IMG/VR virus record: IMGVR_UViG_3300011440_000033
Coordinates: 1 to 42,684 of that record
Direction: 5' to 3' (one strand)
DNA: 42,684 nucleotides
Source of the DNA: a virus
The notes under the pieces are model-generated. The model was not told the origin of the DNA, did no database searches, and was given only the letters and a program-made list of their open reading frames with translations. Below, piece by piece: positions 822 through 36,030 of this stretch. Position numbers and translations under genes: made by a program. How positions within the stretch are numbered: the first letter of the stretch is position 1; the number at the start of each line of letters is the position of its first letter.

Positions 822-1876
822 CGTTGGCCTTTCTCTGCGAAGACAGGAAGCCGCTGAACGACTCCGTTCTCAGGAGTGATGAAGAACATGGCCTGCTGTG
901 GGCGCTCGAAGCCGAATCCGCCGTCCTTGGCGTACTCGTCGTAACCCTTCAGCGAGCCGTTCACCACGAAGTCCTGGCCCCAAAGCAGTTGGTGCCAGTG
1001 TCCGATGAGCGCCAGATCGAAAGGCTTACCGACCGCCCCGTAGAAGGCGTGCCGGCGTAGGAGCCACTTCAAGAGGCTCGGATAGAGCCCGCCGACCCCG
1101 CCGGCTGAGCGGAACGAGTCGCCGTGCGAAAGCAACAAGGTGGTGTCATACACCTTCATCTGTTGCTCGGCCGAGGTGCTGATCTGGAAGGTGATGCGAG
1201 GATCGTCCCGCACCGTGTCGGCGAGCCAGTTGTAAATGATCCAAGCGTTCGAGGACTCAGCCCGCTTCTTCTTCGGCGTTTGCTTGTAGGTACGGTCGTG
1301 GTTGCCGTCCACGGTCGGTACATGGACCGCCCCGAACTCGTCAGCCAAGTACCTTAGCGCCGAGGCCAGGGCGGGCATCCAGTGGACGATGGTTGCTGGC
1401 ACCGGCGCAGCATTGGTCCGGGCCAACTCGTCGTGGATGTCGCCTGTGATGATGTCGCCGAGCAGGGGCACGATGATCCCCTGAAGTGACACCCCGTTCA
1501 CGTAGTTCTTCGCCAAGTCCGCCGCCCCGTTGACGATGCGCTCCAGCCTGCCGTGGGCTATGTCCCGGTCGTAGGCGTTTACACCGTCCATCTCGTCCAG
1601 GTCGACCACCTCGTCGAGGTGAAGGTCGCTTAGCATGAGCACTGGCGTGGCGACGTGAACTTGCTTCGACTTGGGTTTGGCGATCCAGGCCACTGGCCGA
1701 AGGTCGGCCGCACGCACGTAGGCGTATCGTTCAAGCCTGGCGTTGAGCCGCTCGACTTCCTGCTCAGAATGGCCTAGCTCACGACGAAGACGCTTGATCT
1801 CGTTCCAGCGCTCGTCAGCGGTGGCCGTGGCCGTGGCGAGAGACCGAACGGTCTTCGCCATAATGTCGTCAGTCAT
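818..1876 (-). CDS. Calcineurin-like metallophosphoesterase
   Basis: 352 aa. All metallophosphatase motifs are visible: DLH at 84-86, LLGD at 138-141, GNHD at 191-194, SHGD at 250-253 and GHWH at 292-295, binding a dinuclear metal centre. Residues 25-50 form a charged coiled coil, so the enzyme may oligomerise or act on DNA ends. I start at MTDDIM (1876), 8 nt inside the previous gene; longer in-frame extensions are Pro/Ser/Arg-rich shadow sequence. Known phage relatives include SbcD/Mre11-type nucleases and phosphodiesterases. Nuclease versus nucleotide phosphatase cannot be decided here. A GTGTAAACG element lies at codons 98-101 (GVNA). Confidence 0.9.
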   Translation of the reverse strand: MTDDIMAKTVRSLATATATADERWNEIKRLRRELGHSEQEVERLNARLERYAYVRAADLRPVAWIAKPKSKQVHVATPVLMLSDLHLDEVVDLDEMDGVNAYDRDIAHGRLERIVNGAADLAKNYVNGVSLQGIIVPLLGDIITGDIHDELARTNAAPVPATIVHWMPALASALRYLADEFGAVHVPTVDGNHDRTYKQTPKKKRAESSNAWIIYNWLADTVRDDPRITFQISTSAEQQMKVYDTTLLLSHGDSFRSAGGVGGLYPSLLKWLLRRHAFYGAVGKPFDLALIGHWHQLLWGQDFVVNGSLKGYDEYAKDGGFGFERPQQAMFFITPENGVVQRLPVFAEKGQR

Positions 1877-2783
1877 CTCCCCGCACCTTACTGCGGTCGT
1901 CGGTGCCCAGCCCACGGATGCTGAACGTGGCGAGGGCAAGGGCGTGCCAGGTGACGGCGATGATATGCCGGCTATCGGTCTCCCCGTCCCAGTCCTCTCG
2001 GTCCATGAACTGCGCCAGGTGGCGCCCGAGGGCGGCGATGGACAGGCTCCAGGGGTAGCCCTTCTCCCAGTTCCGGTCCTCGTATTTCTCGGAGCCGGCA
2101 CCGTACAACTCGGCCAACTCCCAAAGAGCGTCCGGCGGAATGAGATCGAAGCGGGCCAGCTTGGAGCCTTTCTCACCGCCGGTGTCTGGATCCGTGAACC
2201 GCACCTCGCCCGGGGCGTAGCCATCGGTCCACGTGCTGGACCAGAGGATATCTTCCTCTTGACCGGGCGGCAACGAGTTCTGCATAACCCTTAGCGCCCG
2301 AGCCTCGTACTCAGGCTGGCCGTAGAGATAAGGTGCGAGCAGGCGATCGCCTGGGCAGTAGTAGAGGACCTCCAGCCCGCACGCCTTGGCCGCAGCCAAC
2401 TCGGTCGCCACGCCCGAGGACTGCTCCCAACCGGGCAAGAGCACGACGGCATCCGACTCAGTGATCCGGGCCAGGTCCCAGCGCAGCGCCTTCTCCAGGT
2501 TGAAACGAGGCAAGCCCTCAATATCGCCCTCGTCGTAACCGGGATCATCCACCGAGACAGTGCCCGTATTGAGGTCATGCGCCGCCGGGTTATGCACGTG
2601 CCAGCCTTCGCCAACGAGGTAGTGCTGGGCCTGGAAGAACAGCGGAAAGTTGAACTCCGGGATTCCCCGCATCGGACCGGCGATGTAGCACGAGCGGCCT
2701 ACCGTAGAGCAAGACGGCTCAGGTTGGTATAGGCCGGTGTAGTACTTCACCCTGGTGCCGGAATGGGTCTCGGTACCGATCAT
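1869..2783 (-). CDS. Fusion: DUF4406/deoxyribosyltransferase-like domain + dATP/dGTP pyrophosphohydrolase-like domain
   Basis: 304 aa. Residues 31-145 carry a YIAGPMRG opening and a later DAVVLLPGWEQSSGVATELA segment, the signature of the nucleoside 2-deoxyribosyltransferase-like DUF4406 family. From about 205 on, KLARFDLIPPDAL...YGAGSEKYEDRNWEKGY...HIIAVTWHALAL matches phage dATP/dGTP diphosphohydrolase (MazG/DUF5664-like) proteins. The natural inference is nucleotide-pool remodelling: removal of a base plus hydrolysis of dNTPs. The ATG overlaps the endonuclease VII stop (ATGA). In many phages these two domains are separate genes. No adenylosuccinate-synthetase-like PurZ lies in the window, so a 2-aminoadenine genome is not supported. 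Confidence 0.85.
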   Translation of the reverse strand: MIGTETHSGTRVKYYTGLYQPEPSCSTVGRSCYIAGPMRGIPEFNFPLFFQAQHYLVGEGWHVHNPAAHDLNTGTVSVDDPGYDEGDIEGLPRFNLEKALRWDLARITESDAVVLLPGWEQSSGVATELAAAKACGLEVLYYCPGDRLLAPYLYGQPEYEARALRVMQNSLPPGQEEDILWSSTWTDGYAPGEVRFTDPDTGGEKGSKLARFDLIPPDALWELAELYGAGSEKYEDRNWEKGYPWSLSIAALGRHLAQFMDREDWDGETDSRHIIAVTWHALALATFSIRGLGTDDRSKVRGDD

Positions 2784-10442: not shown

Positions 10443-10458
10443 CGACTGCGTATCAGTG

Positions 10459-10530
10459 TACCCCCCGTGGGACTCGAACCCACATCCCCGGTTGTTGAGA
10501 CCGGTGGCTCTGCCGTTGGCCTAGGGGGGC
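10459..10530 (-). tRNA. tRNA with anticodon CAA (nominally Leu) but short variable loop
   Basis: The acceptor is GCCCCCC/GGGGGGT (G-U at 1:72), the D stem GGC/GCC, the anticodon stem CCGGT/ACCGG with loop CTCAACA (anticodon CAA), and a perfect 5-bp T stem GTGGG/CCCAC with TTCGAGT. The discriminator is A; CCA is not encoded. A Leu tRNA should have a long variable arm; here the variable region is only about 4-5 nt, so the amino-acid identity is uncertain. Confidence 0.8.
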
Positions 10531-11479: not shown

Positions 11480-14400
11480 TCAGGGCACTGGATACTGAAT
11501 AGGAGGCATGCGATCCCTCGCTTTCGCCTTTGCATCCAGTTCCTCCTGGGTGGTGAACTGCCCGGTATCGGGATCCCTCACCGGCTCTGAGGCGGGCTCA
11601 TCGGGGGTGTCAGTTGCACCAGCGGCCTTCTCGGCCCGTTTCTTTGCAGCCTCAGCCTCTCGCTTGTCCCGAGCCGCCTTCGCAGCAGCTTCCTCCCTAG
11701 CCTTCTGTTTGTCCGACTTCGGGTTGAGACGAGACTGTGCCTTCATCACCCGCTCCCGAATAGCCGTCAGTTCCTCCTCCGAGTACACCCGGGGCGCACC
11801 CATGAAGCGAGTGAGGGCGTCCTTCAGGCCAGGGTCTTGGCCGTACACGTCCTGGCCGGTGATCGCCTGTTCGCCGAGCCGTACGAGCGGCACGTTGCGG
11901 ATGGTCTCCAGGATGTCAGAGATCGGGTCGGTCTCCGGCATGGCTCCGCCGGTGGCGTTCATCTGGTACTGGTCGACGAAGCCGCCATCTGGCGCCCCAA
12001 GCATCGCTCGCACCATCGCTTCAACGAAGGGGTTGACGGCATCGGCGATCCCGTGGGGGGTAGTCAGCGAGCCAGCATCGAGGAAGGGGTTCCACGACCG
12101 AGTGTTGTAGCCCTGATCGCCAGCCAGCACGAGTCCTTCGTACGCACGGGGCAGTTGGCCGGCGAACTGGTCCTTCAGAAGTTCCTCGTGCATGACGCCC
12201 AACTGCATCATCACAGCGGTCGCTATCGTGTGGTCGGCGGGGAAGCGGGCGATCAACTTGACCATCCCCTTCTGCCAGGCGTAGAAGGGCAGCACAGAGC
12301 GGATGAAGCCTCGCTCCAACGGACCCAGGTCGCCGTAGTCGACCAGGGCGGCGTAGGCCCGCTTCAGGGCGGCCTCTCTCGTGGCGCCGGTGCGCATCGC
12401 TCGGTCCATGACGGCGGTACGAGAGAACTCGTCGACCACTTCGTTCAGGCGGGTCACCCGTGCCCGCAGTTCGGTGGCCGCCGGACGAACACCCTCCCGG
12501 CGAGCGGTCGAGCCGACGCCTCGATTCAGGATCGTGCCCTGGCCTCCCTCGAAGGACGTAATTGACTGGCCGACGATTTCCTGCGGCATGGTGCCATTGC
12601 GGTACTTGCGCCAGGCCGACAACCAATCTCGGGGACGGACGCCTTCGGCCGTGGCGAGCATGGTGTTGCCGAACAGGTTGTTGACGTACCACCTCGGGCT
12701 GAGGGTCAGTACGAAAGTACGCCACGGGCTGGTCAGACGGGTAATCATGCGGAACGCCCAGTGGTCGTACTCCCGGCTCATCGAACGCAGCGCCGTCTTG
12801 ATTTCCTTCGGCACGATGTATTTCGTGCTCTGGCCGGTGATCTCCTTGATTGCCGTGGGCGACGCCTCGGTCCCGGTGAGCATCCAGGTGCGCTCAGGAT
12901 CCCACGCCACCCAGCCCGGAGGGATGACGGCGTTGGCGTCGATGGGCCTGGCGTAGGAATCCTCGATGTGGTCGATGAGGGCGTTGGTCTGGCGTTCGTG
13001 AGCCACCTCGGCCACGGCCGAGGCCAGGGCCTCGATGGATCGGTCGGCCGCTCCCTGCTTGACGAGGGCGCCGGTGCGAGTCTTACGGGTGCCTGCCTCG
13101 ACGGCGTTCTCCATGCCCCGCTTGCCAAGCCCGAGGTTGCCGAACAGCGTGCCCTGAGCGTTGGCCCAAGTGACGTCCTTCAGGTGGGTCGGCCGGAAGC
13201 CCCGCTCGGTGGCGAGTTGGATGACCTCGACGAAGGTCTTGGGGACGTCCTGAAGCATGTCGGCGATCACGCCCGTCTCGTCGAGGCGGGCTTCCTCCAT
13301 GAGCGTGTGCCAAGCGTCGTACATGGGCTGCCAGGCGGCGTCGGCCGGCCGGCGATTCACAAGGTGCCTGTCGAGCGTCGCCATCGAACGTTGCGCTCCC
13401 CGCTCCAGACGAGCGGCGGCCGCCTCGGAACGGGTAAGTCCGTCCATGGCGTCGAGGATGCGCACCTGGCCCTTCTCCAGGGTTCGGATCATGGCTTGCT
13501 GGTGAGCGATCTTGACGCCCAAGGTTTCCCGCATCTGGCGGGCCTCGCCAAGCTGTCGAGATCGCTGCATGGACTCGAATTCGGTCTCCCACCTATAGCG
13601 CTTCGTTTCTACCGGGTGAGGCATCTGGCCGGCCAACGGCGAACGCAGCATCTCGCCGGCCTCGGTCGGCGGAGCGAACATATCGTCCCAGAACTGACGG
13701 ATAGGTTCGGGCGCCTCGCCGAGCACGGAGTTAAGCATGGGTCCGTAGGTCTGCTCCAGACTGGCGGCGATCTTGCGGAAGACGTTGTCGAGTCCACCCC
13801 GAGCGGACACGAGCGTGCCTCGGCTGGACAGGTAGCCCATGAGTCCGCCTACGAAGTTCTCCTCGGCCAGGCGCTTGCGGGCGGTCATGCCCTTGTCGAC
13901 TAGGCCGGGGTAGACCTTGTGCAAACGAGCAACGTCTGCGTCAGGAAGCAACTGTCGCAGGAGGTGAGCGCCCTCGTGGGTGAGCGTGCCGAGGTTGGCG
14001 TCCTGGAACAGGCGCACGACCAGCCGGGCGTCCTTGCCCTTGGGCATGACCATGGCGCCTAGCAGCTTCTCGTTAAACGCCTGGTGTAGCTCACCGATGG
14101 ATCCCCGCTCGGGGAGGCTGGTGACCTCGTTGGGCGGTGGCACGTTGCGCAGCCGATTGGACTTCAACCGGGCAGCGGCCAGCGCCTGGCTAGTGCTGGG
14201 CTCGGTCATTGAGCGGATACCTTCGACCGCCATCGAGCCCCCGGACGGCCCGAGCAACTTCGAGCGCCAGCCGGCGGCGTAGTCGTTGAGAAGCCTGGTG
14301 GCCTCGGCGCCATCTCCTCGGACTACAGCCTCCTGGATCTTGGCGAACACGTCCTGCCAGATATTGTAGGAGTCCAACTTCTGCCCGAGGATCTTCGAGT

Positions 14401-17400
14401 CGTCGGCTACCTGGAATCGGTTCTCGGCCGTGTAAACGTCATCCCCCTCGGGCAGGGCGGCGATGTTCTCCCGATCCATGGCGGTGACCACGGTGTCCTC
14501 GATCGGGCTGGCGACATCGGTCGACTGAAGCCGGGCGTACTCGGCCGCCAGGTCCCCCGGCACCTCCTCGCCGTGGCGGGCGTAGTCCCGCACCTTGGCC
14601 TGGACAACCTGACGCTCCTGACGGATCCGCTGGGCGGACTCGGACCAATCGAGTTCCTCGGACCAGTAGTCCCGCAGCGGATCGTCGATGCGGCGGCCCT
14701 CAGAGATGCCCTGAGCGATCTCGTCCAGAGCGAAGTCGTGGTGAGCCAGGAATCGACCCCAATCCTGCCGGCCGACCTCCTGCTTGGCGAAGATCCACAG
14801 AAGCGCCTGCACCTCGTGCGGGCGCACGTCCCGTCCGAACTGAGCGGACAACTTGGCAGCCGCCTCCCGTATGTCCCAGGCGTACATGCCGTAGGTGCCC
14901 CCGCCGGCCCAGTCGGTGCCGTCGATGCCGAACAGGTTGGCCATGACGGTGTCAAGAGTGACGGTCGTGCTCTCGGCCGGGCGGGCGAGGTTGTCCCGGA
15001 AGGAGCGCAGCTTGGCGAGCGCCTTCGAGCCGTGGTACTCCATGATGGCCGCCTCATAGGCGTCGTGGATCGCAGGCACCTCCCGCCGCAGCCTGGCCTC
15101 CTCGGCCAACACGGTACGGGTGTCCCGAGCCAAGTCAGCCCCCCGGCTAAGTCCAGCCATCCGCTTGGCGTCCGCTGGGGTGTAGCCAGCCTCCTGGTAC
15201 GCCTTGACCATGCCCCTCTTGTCCAGAATCTCCGTGTGCATGGCGGCTACTTGTCTGTACGCCTCGATGGCTGCCGGATCGCCGGCCGCCTCCAGGTGAC
15301 GCATGACGTCCTCTCGGGGGAGGTTGGCGTCACCCAAACCCTTGTTCGTTCCGGTCCACGCCTCGGGCAGGCGGGAGATGTCGGCGGTCGTCGCCTCGTC
15401 GATACGCAACGTGCCGGTGAGAATGTCAACCACGTTCTGCTTCGGGGAGGCGATCATGCTCGTCGACTCAGTGAGCGCCCGCAGTTCGGGAATGTCTACG
15501 AAACGCTGGGCGACGAGTTCGGTCGTGGCGAAGCCACGGGGAGTCGGACCCCGGCCAGGGGGCGTGGTCTCCAGGCGCTTCATCAAAGCCTTGGCCGCTG
15601 CCATTGCGTTGGCCTGACCCTTGCGGAAGTCGCTCATGTTGGCGACGGCCATCATGGCCCGCCCGAGGTTCTGCTTCGGATTCGCCATGACGGAAGTGGC
15701 GGCCAGCAGATCGTAGAAGACGTCGGCCGAGTCCCGCACCGTGCCGTTAAGCAAAGTCATCGGCTTGCCCCGGTACAGCGCCTCGACGTAGTCGTGCGAG
15801 TCGTAGTACCAGGCCAGGCTGTCGCTCACGTCCTTGGACGACAGCGTGCCGAGCGCCCTGCTGGTCGCCTCCTCGACGGAGAGGTTGAGCACGGTCTGGG
15901 CCAGGAACTCAGCGTTGGGCCGGTTGGTTCCGGTCTCGACCGTGGCGTTCTTGAAGAAGGTCCCGAGCGGCGTGCCCTTCGAGGCGTGCATCCCGTAGTC
16001 CCAGTTCATCCAAACCTGCATCACCTCGTCGGCCGCCTGAGCACCTATGCCTGCCTCCTTGGCTGCATCGGCTGCCTCCCGCCACACACGCAGGAGCGGA
16101 GACGACGTCGGGTTCTTCATGGCCTCGTTGTGGTAGATGCGGGCGAGCGCCTGCATGTCGGGGTTGCCCGACAGCGTCAGATCGCCACCCTCGGCGATGT
16201 CGTAAAGCGCCTGTTGGCCCCGGGCTTCGCCCATGAGGATCGCCAACTCCCGGTTCTCGACGGTCGTTGAGACATCACCGGCCACTCGGGCGATCCCGTT
16301 GTCGTCGGTGTAACCCCACAACCCGAGCCGAGCGTCGGGGTGGTACCAGACCTCCATGTTGTCACGAATGACTTCCTTCAGCAGTGCCTCGGCGTTGATA
16401 GCGAAGGCGTCGGCCGGAATGTCGAACAGGTCCCGGCCGCCGCCCACCATCCCGCCCACGGCGTAGCCGGCGTCGGCGTAGGAGACCTGACCGGTGCCGA
16501 CGTCAAAGGTCGTCCCGCCGTTCTCAACGAAGTCGGCGATGATCGCTTGAACAGTACGGTCCATGTTGCGGACGCCGGGCGGGACCGGGCGATGTAGTTC
16601 GGACACCCGCACAGACACCTCGTCGAGCCTACGGCGCAAATCGGCCGCCGCCCCACGACGAGTCTCGATGACGCCTTCCAGCTTGACCCGCTTGGCGTCA
16701 AGAGCCAGGCGCTCGTCCGGCACTCGCCTGCGCAACTCGGCCGCCCGACGCATGTCCCGCCGTGCCCGGTTGAACCGCTTCAAATCCCTACCGGTCATAA
16801 GTGGAGCATCTGTTTCGAGAATGGCGTCCTCGACGCCGAGCGCACCCTTGCGGCCAGCGATCAACTGCTGGAGGTTGGACTGCCGCTCCATGCGCCAGGT
16901 CTCTGCTGCGGCGTCGAGCGTCTGCTCCAGAGCGGCCAGGCGTTCCGGCCCCAGCTTGTCCTTGACGGCCTGGCTGAGTCCGACGAAGCCACGACGAGCC
17001 TGGCCCCGCAGCGCCATGGCCGCCTCGGGGCTGCCGCCGTCCCTGATGACCGACTCGAACCAATCGGTCCCATCGAGACGTGCGCTGATCTCCTCACCGA
17101 CGATGCGAGAGATAGCGAAGCGGTCTAGCTCGGGCACGGCGGCCATGATCTTCTCAGCGGCGACCCGAGAATCGACAACGGCTCGGGAGGATTGGGCGAT
17201 GCGCTGCGCCATGCGGACGTTGCGGCCCAGGTCGGCGGCGACCTGCTTCAGCCGATGCCGGCGGACCATCGGCGCTGCGACGGCCAGGGCTCGGTTGACG
17301 GGGTCGGGCAGCTTCGAGGTGATAGCTCGTGCCCACGGGGCGGGCGGACGGTTGGCAAGTGCGGACCCGAGTGTAGCTGTCTCAGGATCCGGCACGGCCG

Positions 17401-18445
17401 CCCTGGCCGCTTCGACGGTACGGGCGACGGCCGCCTTGCCCGCCGCCATACGGCCGGGGTCGATCGCTTCGGCCTTGGTGATGCCGGGGGCAGCCCTCGG
17501 ACTGGAACGCTCGGCGGCGCTGAGCGCCCGTGCGGCTTCGTCACCGGCCGGGGTGAACCCGTCAGCGGCAGCTATGACCTGACCGGCCCGAGCGCCACGG
17601 GCAGCGCTTTCGATAGCCACACCCGGTCGAACCCTGTTGGCTGCGGCGATAGCCAAATCCGACCCGGTTCGGGCTGCGGTCTGGTACGGATGGGCGACAC
17701 GATTCAACGCCGAGGCAGCGCTCTCCAAACGACCGGCGGTACCAGTAGCGCCGGCACGAGCGGCGAGTCTGGATCCACCGGTCAGGGCGACTCTGCCAGC
17801 GCCGGCCACGATGGCCGTATTGCCTACGTCCTCCACCAGGGCGGGAAGCAGACCTCTCTCCGCCATCTTCTCGCCGAAGTCCTGCGGCCGGTAACCCTCG
17901 CCGATGATCTGCTCGGACAGGTCGGTGTAGCGCTCCCTCAACGAGGCGTCTTCACGCTGACCCTGCGGCCCCCCTCCGCCGCTCCGGCCAACAGCGCCCA
18001 GGTCGAAGTTGACGTCGGGCACAGCATTCTTGATCGTGCCCGAAAGCGAGTTAGCGATGCTCAGCCCGGCCTCGGGCAGCCTTGACCGCTGGCCGCCGGG
18101 CCAAGCCGATACGCCAACCTGAAAGGCGCCGGTGACGCCCGAGCCGATTTCCCTGAAGACCTGGCCGAGCCCCAACTTGAACCCGGTATCACGCTGCGAA
18201 CGAACCGGAGCGGGTTGCTTCAACTGGCCGCTGACCTTGCCTCTCGCTTCGGTGCCAGCCAGGCGGGACGGGGGCGCCGGCCGAGGAGCAGGAGCCGGCA
18301 CCTGCCTCGGGGCAACGGCCGGCCGAGCGGGAGCGGCCCTCGGCTTGGCGCTCAACCACGAGTACGACTTCGGGGCGACTCGGGCCGCCCGAGACCGGGC
18401 CATGAACTGGGCCAGGGCGGGGTTCAGGCGGACACCGGCGGGCAT
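11480..18445 (-). CDS. Giant 2321-aa polyvalent internal virion protein with HExxH motif
   Basis: By size and neighbourhood this is an internal (ejected) core protein of a short-tailed phage. The first 100 residues are basic and Pro/Ala-rich. A long helical region follows, with Arg/Glu coiled coils around 560-620. HEGAH at about 1490-1494 is a zinc-protease-type motif. The segment ITRLTSPWRTFVLTLSPRWY followed by NNLFGNTMLA (around 1900) is the conserved patch of phage large polyvalent proteins. The last 100 residues are a Lys/Ala/Glu coil ending PPIQYPVP. Likely jobs are forming the ejection conduit and delivering enzyme activity into the host. Polymerase motifs were not seen. A GTGTAAACG element is embedded at VYT near residue 1338. 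Confidence 0.85.
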   Translation of the reverse strand: MPAGVRLNPALAQFMARSRAARVAPKSYSWLSAKPRAAPARPAVAPRQVPAPAPRPAPPSRLAGTEARGKVSGQLKQPAPVRSQRDTGFKLGLGQVFREIGSGVTGAFQVGVSAWPGGQRSRLPEAGLSIANSLSGTIKNAVPDVNFDLGAVGRSGGGGPQGQREDASLRERYTDLSEQIIGEGYRPQDFGEKMAERGLLPALVEDVGNTAIVAGAGRVALTGGSRLAARAGATGTAGRLESAASALNRVAHPYQTAARTGSDLAIAAANRVRPGVAIESAARGARAGQVIAAADGFTPAGDEAARALSAAERSSPRAAPGITKAEAIDPGRMAAGKAAVARTVEAARAAVPDPETATLGSALANRPPAPWARAITSKLPDPVNRALAVAAPMVRRHRLKQVAADLGRNVRMAQRIAQSSRAVVDSRVAAEKIMAAVPELDRFAISRIVGEEISARLDGTDWFESVIRDGGSPEAAMALRGQARRGFVGLSQAVKDKLGPERLAALEQTLDAAAETWRMERQSNLQQLIAGRKGALGVEDAILETDAPLMTGRDLKRFNRARRDMRRAAELRRRVPDERLALDAKRVKLEGVIETRRGAAADLRRRLDEVSVRVSELHRPVPPGVRNMDRTVQAIIADFVENGGTTFDVGTGQVSYADAGYAVGGMVGGGRDLFDIPADAFAINAEALLKEVIRDNMEVWYHPDARLGLWGYTDDNGIARVAGDVSTTVENRELAILMGEARGQQALYDIAEGGDLTLSGNPDMQALARIYHNEAMKNPTSSPLLRVWREAADAAKEAGIGAQAADEVMQVWMNWDYGMHASKGTPLGTFFKNATVETGTNRPNAEFLAQTVLNLSVEEATSRALGTLSSKDVSDSLAWYYDSHDYVEALYRGKPMTLLNGTVRDSADVFYDLLAATSVMANPKQNLGRAMMAVANMSDFRKGQANAMAAAKALMKRLETTPPGRGPTPRGFATTELVAQRFVDIPELRALTESTSMIASPKQNVVDILTGTLRIDEATTADISRLPEAWTGTNKGLGDANLPREDVMRHLEAAGDPAAIEAYRQVAAMHTEILDKRGMVKAYQEAGYTPADAKRMAGLSRGADLARDTRTVLAEEARLRREVPAIHDAYEAAIMEYHGSKALAKLRSFRDNLARPAESTTVTLDTVMANLFGIDGTDWAGGGTYGMYAWDIREAAAKLSAQFGRDVRPHEVQALLWIFAKQEVGRQDWGRFLAHHDFALDEIAQGISEGRRIDDPLRDYWSEELDWSESAQRIRQERQVVQAKVRDYARHGEEVPGDLAAEYARLQSTDVASPIEDTVVTAMDRENIAALPEGDDVYTAENRFQVADDSKILGQKLDSYNIWQDVFAKIQEAVVRGDGAEATRLLNDYAAGWRSKLLGPSGGSMAVEGIRSMTEPSTSQALAAARLKSNRLRNVPPPNEVTSLPERGSIGELHQAFNEKLLGAMVMPKGKDARLVVRLFQDANLGTLTHEGAHLLRQLLPDADVARLHKVYPGLVDKGMTARKRLAEENFVGGLMGYLSSRGTLVSARGGLDNVFRKIAASLEQTYGPMLNSVLGEAPEPIRQFWDDMFAPPTEAGEMLRSPLAGQMPHPVETKRYRWETEFESMQRSRQLGEARQMRETLGVKIAHQQAMIRTLEKGQVRILDAMDGLTRSEAAAARLERGAQRSMATLDRHLVNRRPADAAWQPMYDAWHTLMEEARLDETGVIADMLQDVPKTFVEVIQLATERGFRPTHLKDVTWANAQGTLFGNLGLGKRGMENAVEAGTRKTRTGALVKQGAADRSIEALASAVAEVAHERQTNALIDHIEDSYARPIDANAVIPPGWVAWDPERTWMLTGTEASPTAIKEITGQSTKYIVPKEIKTALRSMSREYDHWAFRMITRLTSPWRTFVLTLSPRWYVNNLFGNTMLATAEGVRPRDWLSAWRKYRNGTMPQEIVGQSITSFEGGQGTILNRGVGSTARREGVRPAATELRARVTRLNEVVDEFSRTAVMDRAMRTGATREAALKRAYAALVDYGDLGPLERGFIRSVLPFYAWQKGMVKLIARFPADHTIATAVMMQLGVMHEELLKDQFAGQLPRAYEGLVLAGDQGYNTRSWNPFLDAGSLTTPHGIADAVNPFVEAMVRAMLGAPDGGFVDQYQMNATGGAMPETDPISDILETIRNVPLVRLGEQAITGQDVYGQDPGLKDALTRFMGAPRVYSEEELTAIRERVMKAQSRLNPKSDKQKAREEAAAKAARDKREAEAAKKRAEKAAGATDTPDEPASEPVRDPDTGQFTTQEELDAKAKARDRMPPIQYPVP

Positions 18446-20577: not shown

Positions 20578-22092
20578 TCAGCCTAGATTGCGGGCCGGGG
20601 CTAGTCCGATCCGAATGCGGTTGATAAGCGCAGCTTCGGTGTCCTCGCCGGACGTGTTCCAGGCCACGGTGATGTACTGGTGGGACGATCCCGAGTTAGG
20701 GAACTTGAACCGGTTGCGCTGTCGAAGGTTAGCGGTCTGATTGAGCACGGAACGGGCAACCGAGCCCCCGCCGTCCTGATTGAATCGAGTCACGGTAATG
20801 TCGTTGGCTGTGGCCGCTCGGGTCTCCCACCAAATTTCGACCTCCCGGATCCTGGCGTCGCCGCCCTCCCTGGTGGTGAACGGAGCGCTCGTCCACGAGC
20901 ACGAGGGTGCTCGGTCGGTGGCCGACGAGTCGTACATGCGGAAGCGCACCATCGTGGCGTCGGCAGCGTCCTCCAGGCTGGCCCCCCACACCGAGTTCGA
21001 GGAGTAGTCGGGCAGCCACAGGTCCTTGTTATCGCTGTCCGGCTGCGAGATCGTAAACCAGGCGCCAGTGACCATGTCCTTGACGAGGCCGCCGCCGACG
21101 AACAGGAAGTCCTTGGCGAAAGCGGTCATGGCGACGATCTTGCTCTCTGACGAACCCCCGGCGATACGCACGACGTGCGGCGACGAAATGGTCTCGCCGA
21201 GGTCCTGGAAGTTGCGGCCGTCCGTCAGATAGACCGACCCGAGTCCATCGACGAAGACCATGCCGCCCGGCGCCGGCTGCGGCTTCAACGGTCGAGGACC
21301 GGCGGGGTGGGTGCCGACGAGTTCCCGGACGACTGTATTCGGACTTGAAATGTCACCCTGAATAGAAACCCAAGAGGCTCCAGACTTTCCAATCAGAATG
21401 TCCGAGGGCTCCTGCGAAGACAGGGCGGTGATGTCAGCGCCAGGTCCACTCGGAGTGACGTCAAGGAAGTTCTCGGTGGACTCGATAGAGCCAACCTCGG
21501 AGTAGTAGAGCCGAGGCGTGTTGGCCTCGGAATACATCCAACGGCCCTGATTGACGATGAGTCCGGTAGGTTGCGCCGACTTCACGAGCGTCACGGCGCC
21601 GTTAGTGAAAGCGATCTTCCAGATCCCTCGGCCAGTGCTGGCGCTCGTGCCTCCGTAGTTCAGCGCCATGAGCATCCAGCGCACGCCGGCTGCGTCAATG
21701 AACGTCTCGAAGAACGCCTGAGTCCAGGTGTCGGCACCGGTGGTGTCGAAGGAATCGGCCAGGAGCGTCCACGAGGAAGCACCGGCCGTCTCGTCCATGC
21801 GGTAGAGCCGGACCTCGTTATCGCTGTCGTCGTACTTCACGACGTACATATCCCGCAGGCCGTTGATTACATGCTGGCCGATGCCGATGATCCGGTTGCC
21901 GGCCGAAAGGTCCAGGTTCGTGGTGGTCACAGAGATGTCGTCGTAGAACGGCCGCATGCCTCCGCCCTTCAAGGGGTAGGCATCGACCATCGCCTGGGCG
22001 GCGTTGTATGGCATCTGACTGCGGTTACGGGTCCACAGGCCGGGAGTGAAATCGGCGATCTCCAGCCACTCCAGGTGATCGGAGTTGGGCAT
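20578..22092 (-). CDS. Tail nozzle / tail tubular protein B-like
   Basis: 504 aa, beta-rich. It opens with HLEWLEIADFTPGLWTRNR and contains several propeller-like repeats (RWMYSEANTPRLYYSEVGS, GGMVFVDGLGSVYLTDGRN), typical of the hub/nozzle protein below the connector. The start MPNSDHLEW is fixed by a TAATG overlap with the preceding transglycosylase-like gene; a 65-residue extension is shadow sequence. It probably forms the lower tail tube through which the internal proteins and DNA pass. Confidence 0.8.
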   Translation of the reverse strand: MPNSDHLEWLEIADFTPGLWTRNRSQMPYNAAQAMVDAYPLKGGGMRPFYDDISVTTTNLDLSAGNRIIGIGQHVINGLRDMYVVKYDDSDNEVRLYRMDETAGASSWTLLADSFDTTGADTWTQAFFETFIDAAGVRWMLMALNYGGTSASTGRGIWKIAFTNGAVTLVKSAQPTGLIVNQGRWMYSEANTPRLYYSEVGSIESTENFLDVTPSGPGADITALSSQEPSDILIGKSGASWVSIQGDISSPNTVVRELVGTHPAGPRPLKPQPAPGGMVFVDGLGSVYLTDGRNFQDLGETISSPHVVRIAGGSSESKIVAMTAFAKDFLFVGGGLVKDMVTGAWFTISQPDSDNKDLWLPDYSSNSVWGASLEDAADATMVRFRMYDSSATDRAPSCSWTSAPFTTREGGDARIREVEIWWETRAATANDITVTRFNQDGGGSVARSVLNQTANLRQRNRFKFPNSGSSHQYITVAWNTSGEDTEAALINRIRIGLAPARNLG

Positions 22093-22580
22093 TAGAGTCC
22101 CCGCTGGTAGTCCACAGTGGCGTCCCAGACAGCCCGAGCAGCGGCGTCCATGAACTGTCGATGGGACCCGTTGAAGAAGGTCGTCCACAGCCGGTAGTCC
22201 GAGCCGCCGGCCGAAATCGACTTGGCGTAGACCGAGGAGCAGAGCATCTGGTCGGCGCAAGCTGTAGTGATCCTGGCCCGGTGCCACCAGTTGTTAATCT
22301 GCCAACCGCCCTCGTCGTACGACATATGGGCGGGCGAGTTGAGGTTGTAGACGAGGTTACGGGCGTTGTCGTCACCACGAGATTCCGCCCAAATCACAGC
22401 GACGCCAGTAACCGGGTCACGGAAGCCGACCCGAATAAGAACCCACGCCCATTCGTACATCGAGTGCCTCGTGACGTCGGGATCCGGGTGCGGCGGCCGG
22501 CCGCCGTCGTGGACAGGCGGAACGCAGGCGAGAGCCAGGAAGGCCAACAGGGCGAGCAGGACAGCGAGCAGTCGGCGCAT
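22092..22580 (-). CDS. Secreted lysozyme/SLT-like transglycosylase
   Basis: 162 aa. A classic signal sequence (MRRLLAVLLALLAFLALAC) ends in a lipobox-like LALAC. Next comes a lysozyme-fold signature, VAVIWAESRGDDNA with catalytic-type Glu66, and GGWQIN (91-96), equivalent to the GLMQI motif of SLT transglycosylases. Four Cys could form disulfides outside the cell. It would cut host peptidoglycan, either as a virion lysin or as an exported endolysin. A signal peptide on a gene in the tail block is unusual, and favours export from the infected cell. Confidence 0.78.
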   Translation of the reverse strand: MRRLLAVLLALLAFLALACVPPVHDGGRPPHPDPDVTRHSMYEWAWVLIRVGFRDPVTGVAVIWAESRGDDNARNLVYNLNSPAHMSYDEGGWQINNWWHRARITTACADQMLCSSVYAKSISAGGSDYRLWTTFFNGSHRQFMDAAARAVWDATVDYQRGL

Positions 22581-23100: not shown

Positions 23101-23124
23101 GGCCGGCCCCCGAAGGGACCGGCC
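23101..23124 (-). terminator. Strong UUCG-loop hairpin, probable minus-strand terminator
   Basis: On the minus strand a 10-bp stem GGCCGGTCCC/GGGGCCGGCC is capped by TTCG and followed by TTCTCG. The single irregular pair is a G-U wobble only in minus-strand RNA (C-A mismatch in plus RNA), and the UUCG tetraloop also forms only in that direction. Confidence 0.65.
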
Positions 23125-23201: not shown

Positions 23202-23564
23202 TCAGGGTCGGAGGGACCATCTCTTGGGTGGGCTGCCGTACCTCGGATACTGACAGTACGAGTGATTCACCCCAGAGGTATTGGATGTCCCGCTCCGGGA
23301 GTAGTTCAAACGCCAGGCGTTGACGCCTTCAACGGTGTACCTGAGGGAGCACAGCACGAGCACGTACGGCCACTGACCGATGAGGTGAATGGACGGCCCT
23401 TGGTAGACGACTCCGTTCACCAGGATCCACCGATAGCAGTCGTTTCTCGTGCAGGGCAAGTGGTTGTGGAGCGGCCCGCTGGCGCCGAAGCTGTGGGCTT
23501 CGGCCGGGGTTGCCCAGACCAAGGAACCCACCGAGACCAAGAGCGCCAAGAGGGCCGCTCGCAT
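23202..23564 (-). CDS. Secreted protein, distal paralogue of a tandem pair (mature N-terminal His)
   Basis: 120 aa. The signal peptide MRAALLALLVSVGSLVWA is followed by TPAEA and then HSFGASGPLHNHL, so cleavage after AEA would leave His24 as first residue. It shares with its upstream neighbour HSFGA-GP-H-HL, CYRWIL-NG, QGP--H--GQ, YVLV-CSL and a late Cys. Conserved are H24, H33, H35, H60 and four Cys (38, 43, 72 and one near 107), consistent with two disulfides and a metal site. The ATG is coupled to the paralogue by TGATG. Function unknown; see findings. Confidence 0.85.
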   Translation of the reverse strand: MRAALLALLVSVGSLVWATPAEAHSFGASGPLHNHLPCTRNDCYRWILVNGVVYQGPSIHLIGQWPYVLVLCSLRYTVEGVNAWRLNYSRSGTSNTSGVNHSYCQYPRYGSPPKRWSLRP

Positions 23565-23944
23565 CAGGGACGCTTAGGCCAGGCCGTGCCGTTGTAGACC
23601 GGGCTAATGCAGTACGGGTACTGATTGCCCGGCGAGCCGGACGAACCCCATGGATCAGGATTCCACGTCCATACGTAGGCGCTGCCGTTCCAGTCCTTCA
23701 GGCTGCACATCACCAAGACGTACCCGAGTTGCCCAGCGAAGTGATGCCAGGGACCCTGCATGATGGCCCCGTTCTGAAGGATCCACCGGTAACAGTTGCT
23801 ACTCGAACAGCCGGGGTTGGTGAGGTGAGTGTGGGGCGGACCCTGTGCCCCGAAGCTGTGTGCGGCTGCCGAGCCGCTTGTGCCGGCGACCGTGCCGGCG
23901 CTCAGGGTGAGGGCGGCAACCGCTGCCAGGATGAGACGCTTCAC
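23564..23944 (-). CDS. Secreted protein, proximal paralogue of a tandem pair (mature N-terminal His)
   Basis: 126 aa. The start is GTG at 23944 (MKRLILAAVAAL), chosen because GGAGG lies 5 nt upstream; a TTG four codons earlier overlaps that site. A signal peptide runs to GSAAA, giving mature His29 in HSFGAQGPPHTHL. Conserved positions are H29, H38, H40, H68 and four Cys (46, 51, 80 and one late). Trp/Tyr-rich (NGSAYVWTWNPDPWGSS). It lies between capsid-side genes and the hairpin pair. The products would act outside the infected cell or be loaded on the virion after export. No family recognised. Confidence 0.85.
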   Translation of the reverse strand: MKRLILAAVAALTLSAGTVAGTSGSAAAHSFGAQGPPHTHLTNPGCSSSNCYRWILQNGAIMQGPWHHFAGQLGYVLVMCSLKDWNGSAYVWTWNPDPWGSSGSPGNQYPYCISPVYNGTAWPKRP

Positions 23945-23992
23945 TTGGACCTCCAAGGTCGGGTTAGGTCGAGGGATCTCGACGCCCCCAGC

Positions 23993-24076
23993 CTAGCCAG
24001 CGAGCGCACCGAACACGCCCACCTTCCAAGCGATGAGAATGACGAGAACGATGACGAAGATCCACCAGCCGTTCAT
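23993..24076 (-). CDS. 27-aa single-pass membrane microprotein
   Basis: MNGWWIFVIVLVILIAWKVG followed by VFGALAG: one hydrophobic helix after a short polar start. The ATG lies 4 nt after the capsid TGA, allowing re-initiation; the ribosome site is weak. The hydrophobicity is unlikely to be chance. The immediate neighbour is the secreted pair. Function unknown. Confidence 0.55.
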   Translation of the reverse strand: MNGWWIFVIVLVILIAWKVGVFGALAG

Positions 24077-24079
24077 GGC

Positions 24080-25312
24080 TCAGAAGGTGGGTTCGGCCAC
24101 CGTTACGGTGACGTGGGCGTTGCGGACCAGCGCCTCCAGGTTGAAGTAGCTCTTGTACCTGGCCTCGATGGCATCGGAGCCGTCCAGGGCCTTGTACAGG
24201 ACCTTGCCGTCATCCTCGTCCCAGGTCCAGTCGTAGCCGATGAACCACTCCAACTCCGCCGTGGTGAGGCCGAAGATCCGAGTGGCCGGGCAGAATCGAT
24301 CGACCAGGAGCACGCCCTGGGCGACTTGCAGGCCCTTCCAGCCGGCCTTCAGGGTCATCTCCCGACCCTCGTACCGCTTCTGGGTCTGCATCTGGCTCGC
24401 CAGCTTACGCCGCTGAACCTGCTCAGAGATCCAGAGGTTCGGGCTGGAGCCGTCGCCGTCCGTCTCGACCTTCTCCTGGGCCTCCTCGAACAGGACCTCG
24501 GAGACCCCGACCGACGAGGAGCCGGCGGTCAGGCCGTTCCACACCGGGTTCGAGGCCGCCGTGATGCCGGCGTAGTTCTGGGTGCCGATCAGGAAGGGCA
24601 GGCCGTTGATCTCGTTCGAGCCCGAGGCGTAGTTACCCTGGCGGAACAGGTAATCGTCGTCAGCCGTGGCGCCGTCGTCGTCCACGGTGATGGTCGGGAC
24701 GCCGTTGGCGCCGACCGCCGTAACCACCATGGCCGCCTCGGAGATCGCACCGGTCCCTGGGGTGACGGCGTCGATGATCTCGTTGACGAAGAACGGCCTG
24801 GTGATGTTGGAAGGCGCCGTCGAACCGAAGTAGTCGACCGTGATGACGTTGGCCGCCGGGGCGCCGTTGACCTGAGCCAACGGACCGTTCGCCAGCACTG
24901 CGTTGATCGTCTGAGCGGTGTTGAACATCTGGCGGGCGAGGTCGTTCTTGACGTCCTTCTCGGCCCCCTTCAGTTCCGACTCCAAAGCCCGAAGAAAGGC
25001 GCCGGTGTCGTTACGGGTGAGGTGCTTCGCCTGGCCCGACACCTTCACGGTGTGGTACATGTAGGCGAGATCGTCACGAGGAGCGATGTACCGCTGGCGG
25101 TCCGCCGTGGGCAGGGCGGCCAGTTCGGCTCGGTTACCCGTCGAGGTCGAGCGCCCGGCGTGCACCGACCAAACCGCTTGGCGGCCGACGATGTCCTCCC
25201 GGTTGAAATGAACCTCGGTCAGAATCGGGTGGCTGTTGTTCAGGGCGTTCCGCAGTCCAGGACCGTAGTTGTCCTTCAGCGCTGCGTCGAAGAATGCGAG
25301 GGACTGGGGCAT
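24080..25312 (-). CDS. Major capsid protein
   Basis: 410 aa, directly downstream of scaffold and portal. N-terminal arm MPQSLAFFDAALKDNYGPGL; an E-loop-like region QAVWSVHAGRSTSTGNRAE; a helical spine (FLRALESELKGAEKDVKNDLARQMF); an inserted acidic beta region (ITVDDDGATADDDYLF); and a C-terminal P-domain-like part (WFIGYDWTWDEDDGKVLYKALDG). This fits an HK97-fold capsid of a short-tailed phage. The upstream sequence has no good ribosome site immediately before this ATG, but a GGGAGG-c-ATG-TAA lies 20-30 nt upstream (see findings). Confidence 0.88.
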   Translation of the reverse strand: MPQSLAFFDAALKDNYGPGLRNALNNSHPILTEVHFNREDIVGRQAVWSVHAGRSTSTGNRAELAALPTADRQRYIAPRDDLAYMYHTVKVSGQAKHLTRNDTGAFLRALESELKGAEKDVKNDLARQMFNTAQTINAVLANGPLAQVNGAPAANVITVDYFGSTAPSNITRPFFVNEIIDAVTPGTGAISEAAMVVTAVGANGVPTITVDDDGATADDDYLFRQGNYASGSNEINGLPFLIGTQNYAGITAASNPVWNGLTAGSSSVGVSEVLFEEAQEKVETDGDGSSPNLWISEQVQRRKLASQMQTQKRYEGREMTLKAGWKGLQVAQGVLLVDRFCPATRIFGLTTAELEWFIGYDWTWDEDDGKVLYKALDGSDAIEARYKSYFNLEALVRNAHVTVTVAEPTF

Positions 25313-33059: not shown

Positions 33060-33773
33060 TTAGTGCCCGACGTACAGGCCGGCCCGGTTCCGCCGCCACT
33101 TGTACGGTTCGATTACTACCCCGCCCGACTGGACAAACTCGACCCCCAAGCCCTGCCAGCGGACGTTGCTGGCCCAAGTGGCCGTGCCTGTGGTCTCCAG
33201 GGCGAGGCGGTGCTGTGCTTCGCTGGAGGAGTTCGGAGTGGCGAAGGGGTGGTCGCCTATCTCGGTCCAGGAGGCTCGGGGCGTGACGGCCTCGTTGGCC
33301 CGGTGGAGGAAGAAGTCCGAGAGGATGTTGTTGGCCGAGCCCACGGCGCCGAAGGTGACCGTGCCAGTGGTCCCGGTCAGGCCGGTGGCCGCTGACACGA
33401 CGTTTCGCACGGGCGTGGCTATGTCGAAGTCGGTGATCTGAATGACGTGCCAGTGGAAACCGGTAGCCGTTACAGCGCCCACGGTGGTAAGCGTGATAGT
33501 GCCCGAACCCGGAGAGGCCCCAGCAGTCATGTACCCGGACATGACCCGAGAGATGCCGTCAACTTGGTCGTGCGTGTTGACGCCTCCGGGGGAAACGATG
33601 GTCATGCCCGAGAGGGCCGTGGTGAGCGTGATGGCGGGGGCAGTCGTGGCGTGCCGGGTGGCGCACCAGATCCACAAGAACGAGTTGGCAGCCGGACTCA
33701 CACTGGCCGTGGCGGCCGAGGTGCCATCGGTCGTGATTCCGTTGCTCGTCAGGAGCGTCAGGGCGATAGTCAT
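33060..33773 (-). CDS. Hypothetical virion surface protein
   Basis: 237 aa from MTIALTLLTSNGITTD (start chosen so it does not run into the upstream stop at 33781). Thr/Ala/Gly-rich beta protein with VSPAANSFLWIWCAT and GTVTFGAVGSANNILSDFFL, the type of composition seen in phage minor tail or decoration proteins. It lies between fibres and the large repeat protein. No enzymatic motif. Confidence 0.72.
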   Translation of the reverse strand: MTIALTLLTSNGITTDGTSAATASVSPAANSFLWIWCATRHATTAPAITLTTALSGMTIVSPGGVNTHDQVDGISRVMSGYMTAGASPGSGTITLTTVGAVTATGFHWHVIQITDFDIATPVRNVVSAATGLTGTTGTVTFGAVGSANNILSDFFLHRANEAVTPRASWTEIGDHPFATPNSSSEAQHRLALETTGTATWASNVRWQGLGVEFVQSGGVVIEPYKWRRNRAGLYVGH

Positions 33774-33780
33774 GGTCGGC

Positions 33781-36030
33781 TCAGAACTGCTGGACCCAGA
33801 GCGCCACAATCAGGTCGTCGGTGCCTCCGTACTGCGCTGCCGGCGTGCCCTTAGCAACCAGGTGTCCGAAGATGTTGGCCGAGCCGGAGGTGACGAACGG
33901 GGCCGAGACCGGACCGCCGTGCTCCTCGCCTTTGCACCAGGCGCCGGAGACGGTGTTGCGGTAGTCGGCGGCATCAAAGTCAATGACAGCGAACGGGCGG
34001 GCGGTGATGAGGTTGGCGTCGGTGAGATCCCAGGCGCCAGAGTCAGCACTAGCCGCCGTAGGATCTGACTCGAACAACCACAGTTCAAGACCGTTCAAGG
34101 CGGTAACGGTTTCGGTGATGACCGATGCGCCGACGACCATGCCGCCCCGGCCAGTGGCGAGCGCTGCGGCGAAGGTCATCTCGCCGCCGATCTGGTCGTT
34201 GTCGACGTAGCCCGAGGTGGCGATGGTAGGGGTGGCCGTGACTCGTACCTGACGGGCCTGAACGGTAGCGACCTGTCCGCCTTCGAGCGTCAGCCAGATA
34301 TGTGAGACATCGCCGTCGTCCTGCGCCGTAGGAACTGTGGTCTCGACTCGGCCACCGATGAGCACCGGGCTTCCCGAAGCGGCCGTGCCTTCGGCGACGC
34401 TTCCCGACACCGTGACCCCGCCGTCCACGGTGATCGAGCCGCCAGCATCGGCAATGTTCACCGCACCCTTACGAGTACCCCAAATTTGGACCTGGTCTCC
34501 GTCCGCTGACACGTCGCCGGGAGCGGCAGTCGAGGCCCGCACAGAGATCCCAAGCAGACCGCCGGCAAGTGGGGCGTCGGTAGCCTCAAAGCCCTCGACT
34601 TGGCCGGCAACGCTGAAGGGGAAATCGGGGTCGCCGGCCACCCACAAGGATCCGCTGCCCGTAGCGTGAGCAGCAATCCAGTCGCCGTTGGCGGTGACCG
34701 ACGCCGTTCGAGTATCGTCACGGCGCAGCAAGGCGGTTTGTCCCACTGGATCGGCGGGAGTAGCGACGTCTTCGGTATAAGCCGTGATGTTAGAGACGGC
34801 GACTGTGCCGTCAACCGTCAGCGAAGCGCCGTTGTCATCGACGGAGAGCACGCCGGTCGAGTCGTTAGCGATAGTCACCCGCTGAGCAGTAGCTTCAGCG
34901 CCTCCCCCGACCACGGAGAGGACCGGGTTGTCCACGGTGAGCGAACCGGCACCGTCGTCCACACTTAGGGTCGAACCGTTGTCGTCGACGGAGAGCACGC
35001 CGGTCGAGTCCGAAGCGAGCGTGACCCGCTGGGCTGTGGCTTCGGCGCCTCCACCCACGACGGAAAGGACTGGATTGTCGACCGTCAGCGAAGCGCCGTT
35101 GTCGTCGACGGAGACCAGGCCCGTAGAGTCGTTGGCGAGCGTGACACGGAGGGCCGTCGCCTCTACGCCGCCTCCCACAACGGACAGCGCTGCGTTGTCG
35201 ACGGTGATCGAGTTGCCTGAGTCGTGGATTCCAACCTCGTCCCACACCCCCGACTGCGTCACGGCCACGGTGCCGCCCACGGACGAGACGGCCACCGAAC
35301 CGTCGACCGTCAACGAGCTACCGTTGTCAGTGACCGGAATGGCGTCGACATGCTTGACGTACATCTCACCCTTGTCGGTGCCCCGGGCGGCGACGTTATC
35401 GCCGTCCGCCGATGTCTGACCGGAGAGGACGTCATTCCGTATGAGGATCTGAGCGTTGCCGATCGGGTCGGCCGCCGCAGCCGCATCCTCGGTGTACTGC
35501 GTGCCTCCGCCTACGGCGACGGGCGTGCCGCCGGTATCGAGAAGCGTGACGTATTGGGCGCCGAAGTTCGTGCCTCGAACAGCGACGTTGTCACCATCAG
35601 CAGAGGTCAGCCCCGCAGGCGTGTCCTGGCGAACAACGATGGTGGCATTACCGATTGGGTTGGCTGCGGCCGCAGCGTCCTCGGTATATTGCGTCCCGCC
35701 ACCAACGGCGACGGGCGTGCCGCCGGTATCGAGAAGCGTGACGTATTGAGCGCCGAAATTCGTACCCCGGACGGCGACATTGTCGCCATCGGCGTCCGTG
35801 ATTGCTGCGGGAGTATCCGTCCGCACGAACAGCGGAACACCGCCGACAGGGTTACCCGAGGCGACTGCATCTTCGGTGTACTCGGTGCCTCCGCCTCCAG
35901 CCCCGCCTGCGCCTTCCCACAGTTCCTCGGGGCCGGCCAGGCCGCCGACGTCAACGATGACAACCTGACGAGTCAGGCCGTCACGATCTACTGCTCGGGG
36001 GATTGCCTCGGTACCCTGATTGTCGGCCAT
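33781..36030 (-). CDS. Large repeat-containing virion protein
   Basis: 749 aa. The N-terminal third has repeats of about 66 residues (GTQYTEDAAAAANPIGNA, ADGDNVAVRGTNFGAQYVTL, LDTGGTPVAVGG). The middle has short repeats built on DNGASLTVDNPVLSVVGGG, EATAQRVT and STGVLSVDD. The C-terminal third is a unique beta domain (VSAPFVTSGSANIFGHLVAKG). Repeat proteins with this SLTVDG pattern occur as phage tail or head fibre proteins; the unique C-terminus would be the tip. Start MADNQGTEAIPRAVD. Confidence 0.78.
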   Translation of the reverse strand: MADNQGTEAIPRAVDRDGLTRQVVIVDVGGLAGPEELWEGAGGAGGGGTEYTEDAVASGNPVGGVPLFVRTDTPAAITDADGDNVAVRGTNFGAQYVTLLDTGGTPVAVGGGTQYTEDAAAAANPIGNATIVVRQDTPAGLTSADGDNVAVRGTNFGAQYVTLLDTGGTPVAVGGGTQYTEDAAAAADPIGNAQILIRNDVLSGQTSADGDNVAARGTDKGEMYVKHVDAIPVTDNGSSLTVDGSVAVSSVGGTVAVTQSGVWDEVGIHDSGNSITVDNAALSVVGGGVEATALRVTLANDSTGLVSVDDNGASLTVDNPVLSVVGGGAEATAQRVTLASDSTGVLSVDDNGSTLSVDDGAGSLTVDNPVLSVVGGGAEATAQRVTIANDSTGVLSVDDNGASLTVDGTVAVSNITAYTEDVATPADPVGQTALLRRDDTRTASVTANGDWIAAHATGSGSLWVAGDPDFPFSVAGQVEGFEATDAPLAGGLLGISVRASTAAPGDVSADGDQVQIWGTRKGAVNIADAGGSITVDGGVTVSGSVAEGTAASGSPVLIGGRVETTVPTAQDDGDVSHIWLTLEGGQVATVQARQVRVTATPTIATSGYVDNDQIGGEMTFAAALATGRGGMVVGASVITETVTALNGLELWLFESDPTAASADSGAWDLTDANLITARPFAVIDFDAADYRNTVSGAWCKGEEHGGPVSAPFVTSGSANIFGHLVAKGTPAAQYGGTDDLIVALWVQQF
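34780..35860. repeat. Intragenic tandem repeats (about 198-bp and about 120-bp units)
   Basis: The best preserved copies are near 35491-35604 and 35690-35800, offset about 198 bp (66 codons), including an identical run coding for GTPVAVGG and the preceding strand. A second set (34800-35210) repeats the short DNG/SLTVD modules. The DNA is similar enough to allow copy-number change by slippage or recombination. Confidence 0.75.

Follow-up and report, generated by a model that had tools for sequence, protein, structure and literature searches.

Tandem phage genes for predicted secreted proteins with a conserved mature N-terminal histidine

Why would a phage carry, next to its major capsid protein gene, two adjacent genes whose products appear to be exported and to begin, once processed, with a histidine? 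The question arises from an IMG/VR virus record of 42,684 bases (about 64% G+C), called the window here in its full length, in which genes for the terminase, portal and major capsid proteins are recognised. A preliminary description had reported two minus-strand open reading frames at this locus, and both are present in the list of open reading frames and in the sequence (genes A and B, Table 1). From the local sequence, the GTG codon at 23944 is a better start for gene B than the TTG at 23956 given in that list, because this TTG overlaps the Shine-Dalgarno sequence of the gene. The two genes share one base within a TGATG overlap, through which their translation may be coupled.

The signal peptides were judged by hand from the sequence. 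Those of A and B each carry one or two Lys/Arg residues near the start and a hydrophobic region with a mean Kyte-Doolittle value of 2.5-2.8 over 11 residues, and they end in AEA/HSFGA (A) and AAA/HSFGA (B). By the same hand reading, an AxA cleavage site stands directly before the histidine in 5/5 of the full-length distinct members of the family described below; in B only, a cut one residue earlier (SAA/AH) would be possible. Neither A nor B shows a recognisable lipobox or anchor. In agreement with the preliminary description, AxA thus directly precedes HSFGA in both proteins, the mature chains are small (97 residues for A and 98 for B, against about 97 announced), and the two share three further histidines and four cysteines, the histidines being His1, His10, His12 and His37 in A or His40 in B. 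Only some 2.6% of the proteins that carry a signal peptide have His at position +1 (PMC12537917).

Table 1. Features of the gene pair and of its immediate surroundings in the window
Feature	Coordinates	Strand	Details
Gene A, secreted paralogue, 120 aa	23202..23564	(-)	ATG 23564
Gene A, predicted signal peptide	23496-23564	(-)	23 aa
Gene A, predicted mature part	23205-23495	(-)	97 aa, begins HSFGASGPLHNHLPC
His1 codon of mature A	23493..23495	(-)	directly after AEA; invariant in the family
Gene B, secreted paralogue, 126 aa	23564..23944	(-)	GTG 23944
Gene B, predicted signal peptide	23861-23944	(-)	28 aa
Gene B, predicted mature part	23567-23860	(-)	98 aa, begins HSFGAQGPPHTHL
His1 codon of mature B	23858..23860	(-)	directly after AAA; invariant in the family
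Shine-Dalgarno GGAGG of gene B	23950..23954	(-)	5 nt before GTG
Stop of B overlapping start of A (TGATG)	23564..23566	(-)	sequence
27-aa ORF MNGWWIFVIVLVILIAWKVGVFGALAG	23993..24076	(-)	one predicted membrane helix; starts 3 nt after the capsid stop
Major capsid protein gene	24080..25312	(-)	immediately upstream of the pair; phrog_14242, E 8.9e-42
Perfect hairpin GGCCGGTCCC-TTCG-GGGGCCGGCC	23101..23124	(-)	TTCTC after; region folds at z -3.9

A small family conserved from the predicted cleavage site onwards

Relatives of the two proteins were found in eight IMG/VR records besides the window, all of metagenomic origin. The family comprises six distinct sequences, one of them a fragment (a one-residue variant is not counted separately), spread over about four phage lineages in IMG/VR. 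Records G001 and G002 are fragments of one phage, 99.9% identical to each other; G003, G004 and G005 form one lineage of 48% G+C; G006 has 70% G+C; and G007 and G008 are contigs of about 70% G+C, the gene being cut short by the contig end in G008, where its first part alone is present. The tandem pair was found only in the window's lineage, every other record showing a single copy. The identity of A to B is much the same as to the other members (44-54%), which points to either an early duplication or an independent acquisition of A.

A and B are members of a small protein family undescribed in the libraries searched. No significant match to the family was obtained in Pfam, NCBIfam or PHROGs; hmmscan of five members against Pfam-A, up to an E value of 10, returned LPAM_1 alone, at E 0.58. 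Homology to PHROG 5368 (unknown function) was rejected, the match being sub-threshold (E 0.007), restricted to residues 48-98 and obtained with two of the five members only. The sequence search of the PDB brought no relative, nor did 50,697 GenBank phage records, among which one chance match appeared at E 10, or 72,556 plasmids. Pattern scans of GTDB genomes yielded 59 and 20 matches with no relative among them, and the family profile found nothing when run on 12 of the pattern-matched genomes. As these scans detect close relatives only, the absence of the family from cellular genomes is provisional. Viral scans with three further peptide motifs added no new members; two candidates, L094 and L113, share the motif W-x-L-x-NG-xxx-QGP but seem to belong to another secreted family and were set aside.

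Comparison of the members revealed a marked change in conservation along the chain. Averaged over pairs of members, identity amounts to 24% for the signal peptides, 87% for the AxA triplet, 88% over mature residues 1-13 (HSFGAQGPPHTHL in B) and 52% over the rest. Such an abrupt onset of conservation at the predicted cleavage site is what would be expected of a functional, freshly exposed N-terminus; it strengthens the view that the N-terminal histidine is the relevant feature and is the most telling sign that the newly formed N-terminus is important. In the numbering of B, the invariant residues are H1, S2, F3, G4, G7, P8, H10, H12, L13, C18, C23, R25, W26, L28, N30, G31, Q35, G36, P37, H40, G43, V48, L49, V50, C52, S53, W64, N67, G72, G78, Y83, C84, P87, Y89, W94 and P98. 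His1, His10, His12, His40 and the four cysteines are kept in every full-length member and the other histidines vary, His39 in B and His78 in A being unconserved. The Gly, Pro, Trp and Cys columns are as invariant as the His columns, no column of the family alignment is invariant for Asp or Glu, and the mature length ranges from 97 to 102 residues.

Pairwise dN values lie between 0.12 and 0.54 and dS values between 0.79 and saturation (dN 0.13 and dS 2.0 for B and the G004 type; dN 0.12 and dS 0.79 for L010 and L013). As dN is far below dS, these values indicate that the family genes are under purifying selection. Because the pattern of H1, H10, H12, H40 and four cysteines is kept in members from other phages under this selection, the comparison argues that it is more than chance.

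Structure prediction with AlphaFold2 gave a mean pLDDT of 46.5 in a full-length run with five sequences and of 49.2 in a mature-chain run with six. The models are unreliable: little more than a short beta core was built, around residues 23-34, 48-57 and 62-67, and pLDDT is below 50 at residues 1-16 and 31-47, the candidate brace histidines being 10, 12 and 40, all invariant. A Foldseek search with the second AlphaFold2 model, itself of low confidence, returned no match with an E value below 1 and was treated as meaningless.

Genomic surroundings and mobility of the family genes

On the minus strand of the window, the order of genes and signals is capsid, 27-aa ORF, B, A, two strong hairpins, a 163-aa protein and an SLT_3 protein. 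The hairpin at 23101..23124 is the probable end of a capsid-B-A transcript; it was not reported by a scan for consensus terminators, for which a run of T is required, and a promoter scan found no sigma-70-like promoter. The SLT_3 protein, encoded two genes after the pair (22092-22580, minus strand), is lysozyme-like (PF18896, E 7e-13) and carries a lipoprotein-type signal, LALAC.

The family gene has other neighbours in the other phages. It lies in a replication block, upstream of RecB-like nuclease and AAA genes, in G003 and G004; between the prohead protease gene and a glycosyltransferase plus PhyH gene in G006; and downstream of the portal/MuF region in G008. The window phage and G004 are distantly related, with only 27%, 24% and 24% identity between their polymerase, capsid and portal proteins, yet B and its G004 counterpart share 83% identity and are encoded in different modules. 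Because of this disparity in identity and in location, the sequences indicate that the family gene is cargo passed from phage to phage, with no fixed link to virion assembly; differing genome positions in unrelated phages, by which moron or cargo genes are recognised, are indeed what was found. The pair had been described at the outset as lying within a virion block. This is correct locally, as the pair closes the capsid run of the window and is followed by a strong hairpin. In another phage, however, a relative sits in the replication block, so that the placement suits mobile cargo better than a part of the virion.

The carriers are several unrelated soil viruses, probably of actinobacteria, a host assignment drawn from distant matches to actinobacteriophage proteins and from an LPATG-type protein. 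Distant matches link the terminase and capsid proteins of the window to phages of Arthrobacter and other actinobacteria, and the terminase also to phages of other hosts. The LPATG-type protein is encoded in G008 (IMGVR_UViG_3300034149_000104; L022:6288-7019, plus strand), two genes upstream of the family member. It is an exported protein whose C-terminus consists of LPATG, a hydrophobic stretch and an RGRK tail; it has no library profile match and is likely to be a sortase substrate.

Metal binding and the alternatives to it

The amino group and the ring of a free N-terminal histidine together chelate Cu(II) or Ni(II), and a further histidine completes a histidine brace (PMC10952591). An N-terminal His left after removal of a signal peptide chelates copper or nickel whatever the fold, and searches based on a +1 His have brought out secreted copper and nickel binders of several folds, among them DUF6702, with a modelled three-His site that includes His1 (PMC12537917). 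With four invariant histidines including His1, invariant cysteines and no invariant acid, the present family would fit a metal binder better than an ordinary hydrolase; it is the lack of any invariant Asp or Glu column that argues against acid/base hydrolysis of the ordinary kind. We propose, as a reading that we hold to be about evenly balanced between right and wrong, that A and B are mobile accessory genes for secreted, disulfide-stabilised metal-binding proteins with a role in the envelope or outside the cell.

The proposed course of events is as follows. The genes would be carried as mobile, moron-type accessory genes by soil phages, probably of actinobacteria. Their products would be exported by Sec and cleaved by signal peptidase I, yielding a mature chain of about 98 residues that starts with the conserved His and that two disulfides may hold, given the four invariant cysteines in an exported protein. 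A transition metal, Cu(II), Ni(II) or Zn(II), would be bound by the amino group and imidazole of His1 together with at least one of His10, His12 and His40, and the metal-loaded or metal-scavenging protein would presumably work outside the cytoplasmic membrane of the infected cell. Its most likely role would be metal sequestration or delivery, or metal-dependent envelope chemistry, rather than that of a virion part. Metal-transport genes were not recognised in the neighbourhoods examined, and His1 could be conserved for another reason, for instance insertion of the N-terminus into a target. A narrower version, in which the phage protein binds copper (or nickel) in a His1/His10/His12/His40 site within a new small disulfide-bonded fold and starves, poisons or oxidatively modifies the host envelope, is put forward tentatively and is rather less likely to be right than wrong. 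The idea of a metal site had been raised in the preliminary description. Its components (secretion, a conserved N-terminal His and a conserved His/Cys set) stand, the family comparison has strengthened it, and metal binding itself appears plausible; its suggestions of an enzyme, of glycan attack and of a link to the virion found no support, and surface modification or superinfection control is possible.

The main rival to metal binding, in our estimation unlikely, is that a secreted protein without metal coats or masks a host surface structure, as in superinfection exclusion or receptor masking, its N-terminal segment being the binding epitope. It gains some support from the closest match, besides the family itself, between the genes of the window and of G004: part of a tail protein, 128 aa long, is 78% identical, against 24-42% for the other genes, although this sharing of fibre and family gene comes from one phage pair. 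The LPATG-type protein of the carrier G008 suggests that such phages place proteins on the cell surface, and a secreted, membrane-targeted Ltp-like protein has been proposed to confer superinfection resistance in a Cutibacterium phage (PMC11480721). Four conserved histidines, one of them exactly at the cleavage site, would nevertheless be an unusual requirement for simple binding. Another candidate is a copper histidine-brace enzyme that would resemble LPMOs in mechanism though not in sequence and would oxidise glycans of the envelope or outside the cell. The N-terminal and further conserved His, the conserved Trp and Tyr and the possible disulfide cysteines are compatible with such an enzyme, which needs no invariant carboxylate, and the canonical brace requires only His1 and one more His (PMC10952591). 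We regard it as improbable all the same: neither LPMO_10 nor any other Pfam profile matches, hhalign to LPMO_10 gives a probability of 0.4% with thin profiles (2-6 sequences), 98 residues correspond to about half an AA10 domain (183 positions in PF03067), and of the N-terminal-His proteins other than LPMOs that have been tested, most bind metal but show no substantial oxidase activity (PMC12537917).

A processed N-terminus may also act by entering the active site of another protein. In TIMPs, the N-terminal Cys is inserted into the catalytic site of a metalloprotease. By analogy, the family could inhibit a host extracellular metalloprotease and so protect virions or other phage proteins, and its small size, secretion and invariant processed N-terminus near conserved cysteines suit this function. 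One report associates a secreted protease of Salinispora mooreana with reduced phage infectivity (PMC13175485), and another describes phage-derived metzincin/TIMP-like pairs in Listeria (PMC8235301). An inhibitor would leave the invariant His10, His12 and His40 unexplained and the family resembles no Pfam inhibitor family, which makes this explanation a doubtful one of low probability. Least of all do we expect a minor virion or assembly component that passes through the membrane by chance, an explanation we consider very improbable: the pair does directly follow the capsid gene and precede a probable terminator in the window, but all members have signal peptides, the hosts look monoderm, and in G003 and G004 the gene stands in the replication block beside RecB-like nuclease and AAA genes.

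Among known proteins, the metal-binding reading finds its closest counterparts in DUF6702, DUF4198, Ang-1 and Ang-2, identified by signal strapping (PMC12537917), in which His likewise comes first after signal peptidase I cleavage and further potential ligands are conserved. The family differs from them by its four cysteines and the HxH at 10-12, no sequence similarity was found in the Pfam searches, and they are cellular proteins, phages being unmentioned in the main text of that study. None of the Pfam models for YcnI (DUF1775), DUF4198 and DUF6702 matched any of the five members. CopC (PF04234) is also secreted, starts with His and has a mature length of about 95-100 residues. Its alignment keeps His1, Asp85 and His87 and has no invariant Cys, whereas the family has no invariant Asp and lacks the CopC-type Asp/His pair near the C-terminus; no Pfam match to CopC was obtained, and hhalign between the thin profiles gave a probability of 0.1%. 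AA10 LPMOs (PF03067) share secretion, a mature N-terminal His and conserved cysteines, but their domain of about 170-200 residues is twice as long as the family's 97-102, begins with an HGxxxxPxSR-type motif and has no alignable region. The earlier statement that the proteins are not recognisably of the LPMO or copper-carrier families therefore holds, no profile relationship to LPMO or CopC being detectable; the family may still work like CopC, LPMO_10, YcnI, DUF4198 or DUF6702 proteins. As small exported proteins encoded outside the core virion set, A and B recall phage morons such as Ltp of TP-J34 and the Ltp-like gp41 of a Cutibacterium phage (PMC11480721), from which they differ in that Ltp-like proteins are membrane- or lipid-anchored and have repeat domains.

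The family is of phage origin, without database relatives, and belongs to the loose class of secreted N-terminal-His proteins. If its members do bind metal through the N-terminal His, phages would export metal-handling proteins of their own to the host envelope or surroundings, a role undescribed in the literature that we found; if the metal is copper or nickel, no earlier example of such an N-terminal-His metalloprotein from a phage is present in that literature. Being tiny and sharply defined, the family provides a clean small test of a conserved post-signal-peptide His as a predictor of phage metalloproteins, and it may offer a new small disulfide-bonded fold.

Other genes of the window

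The tail protein stretch shared with G004 lies at 34396-34779 (minus strand), inside the gene of a repetitive tail-like protein at 33781-36030; its 78% identity, most shared genes being at 24-42%, suggests exchange of a receptor-binding part. The adjoining gene, 33060-33809, encodes a 249-aa protein with relatives of 36-38% identity in G004 and G006, the G006 relative having one in turn in G007. Near the genes for a family A DNA polymerase, Prim-Pol and AAA_24, positions 1869-2783 (minus strand) encode a protein that joins DUF4406 to the N-terminal domain of a dATP/dGTP diphosphohydrolase (PF18909, E 2.4e-28) and calls to mind the MazZ protein of 2-aminoadenine phages. The idea that the window phage has a Z-genome (2-aminoadenine) was rejected, as a gene for a PurZ-type adenylosuccinate synthetase was not found in the record. 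The window also contains a lone tRNA-Leu (CAA) gene at 10458-10530 (minus strand) and, in its structural half, a gene at 11480-18445 (minus strand) for a 2321-aa protein that is probably a virion protein.
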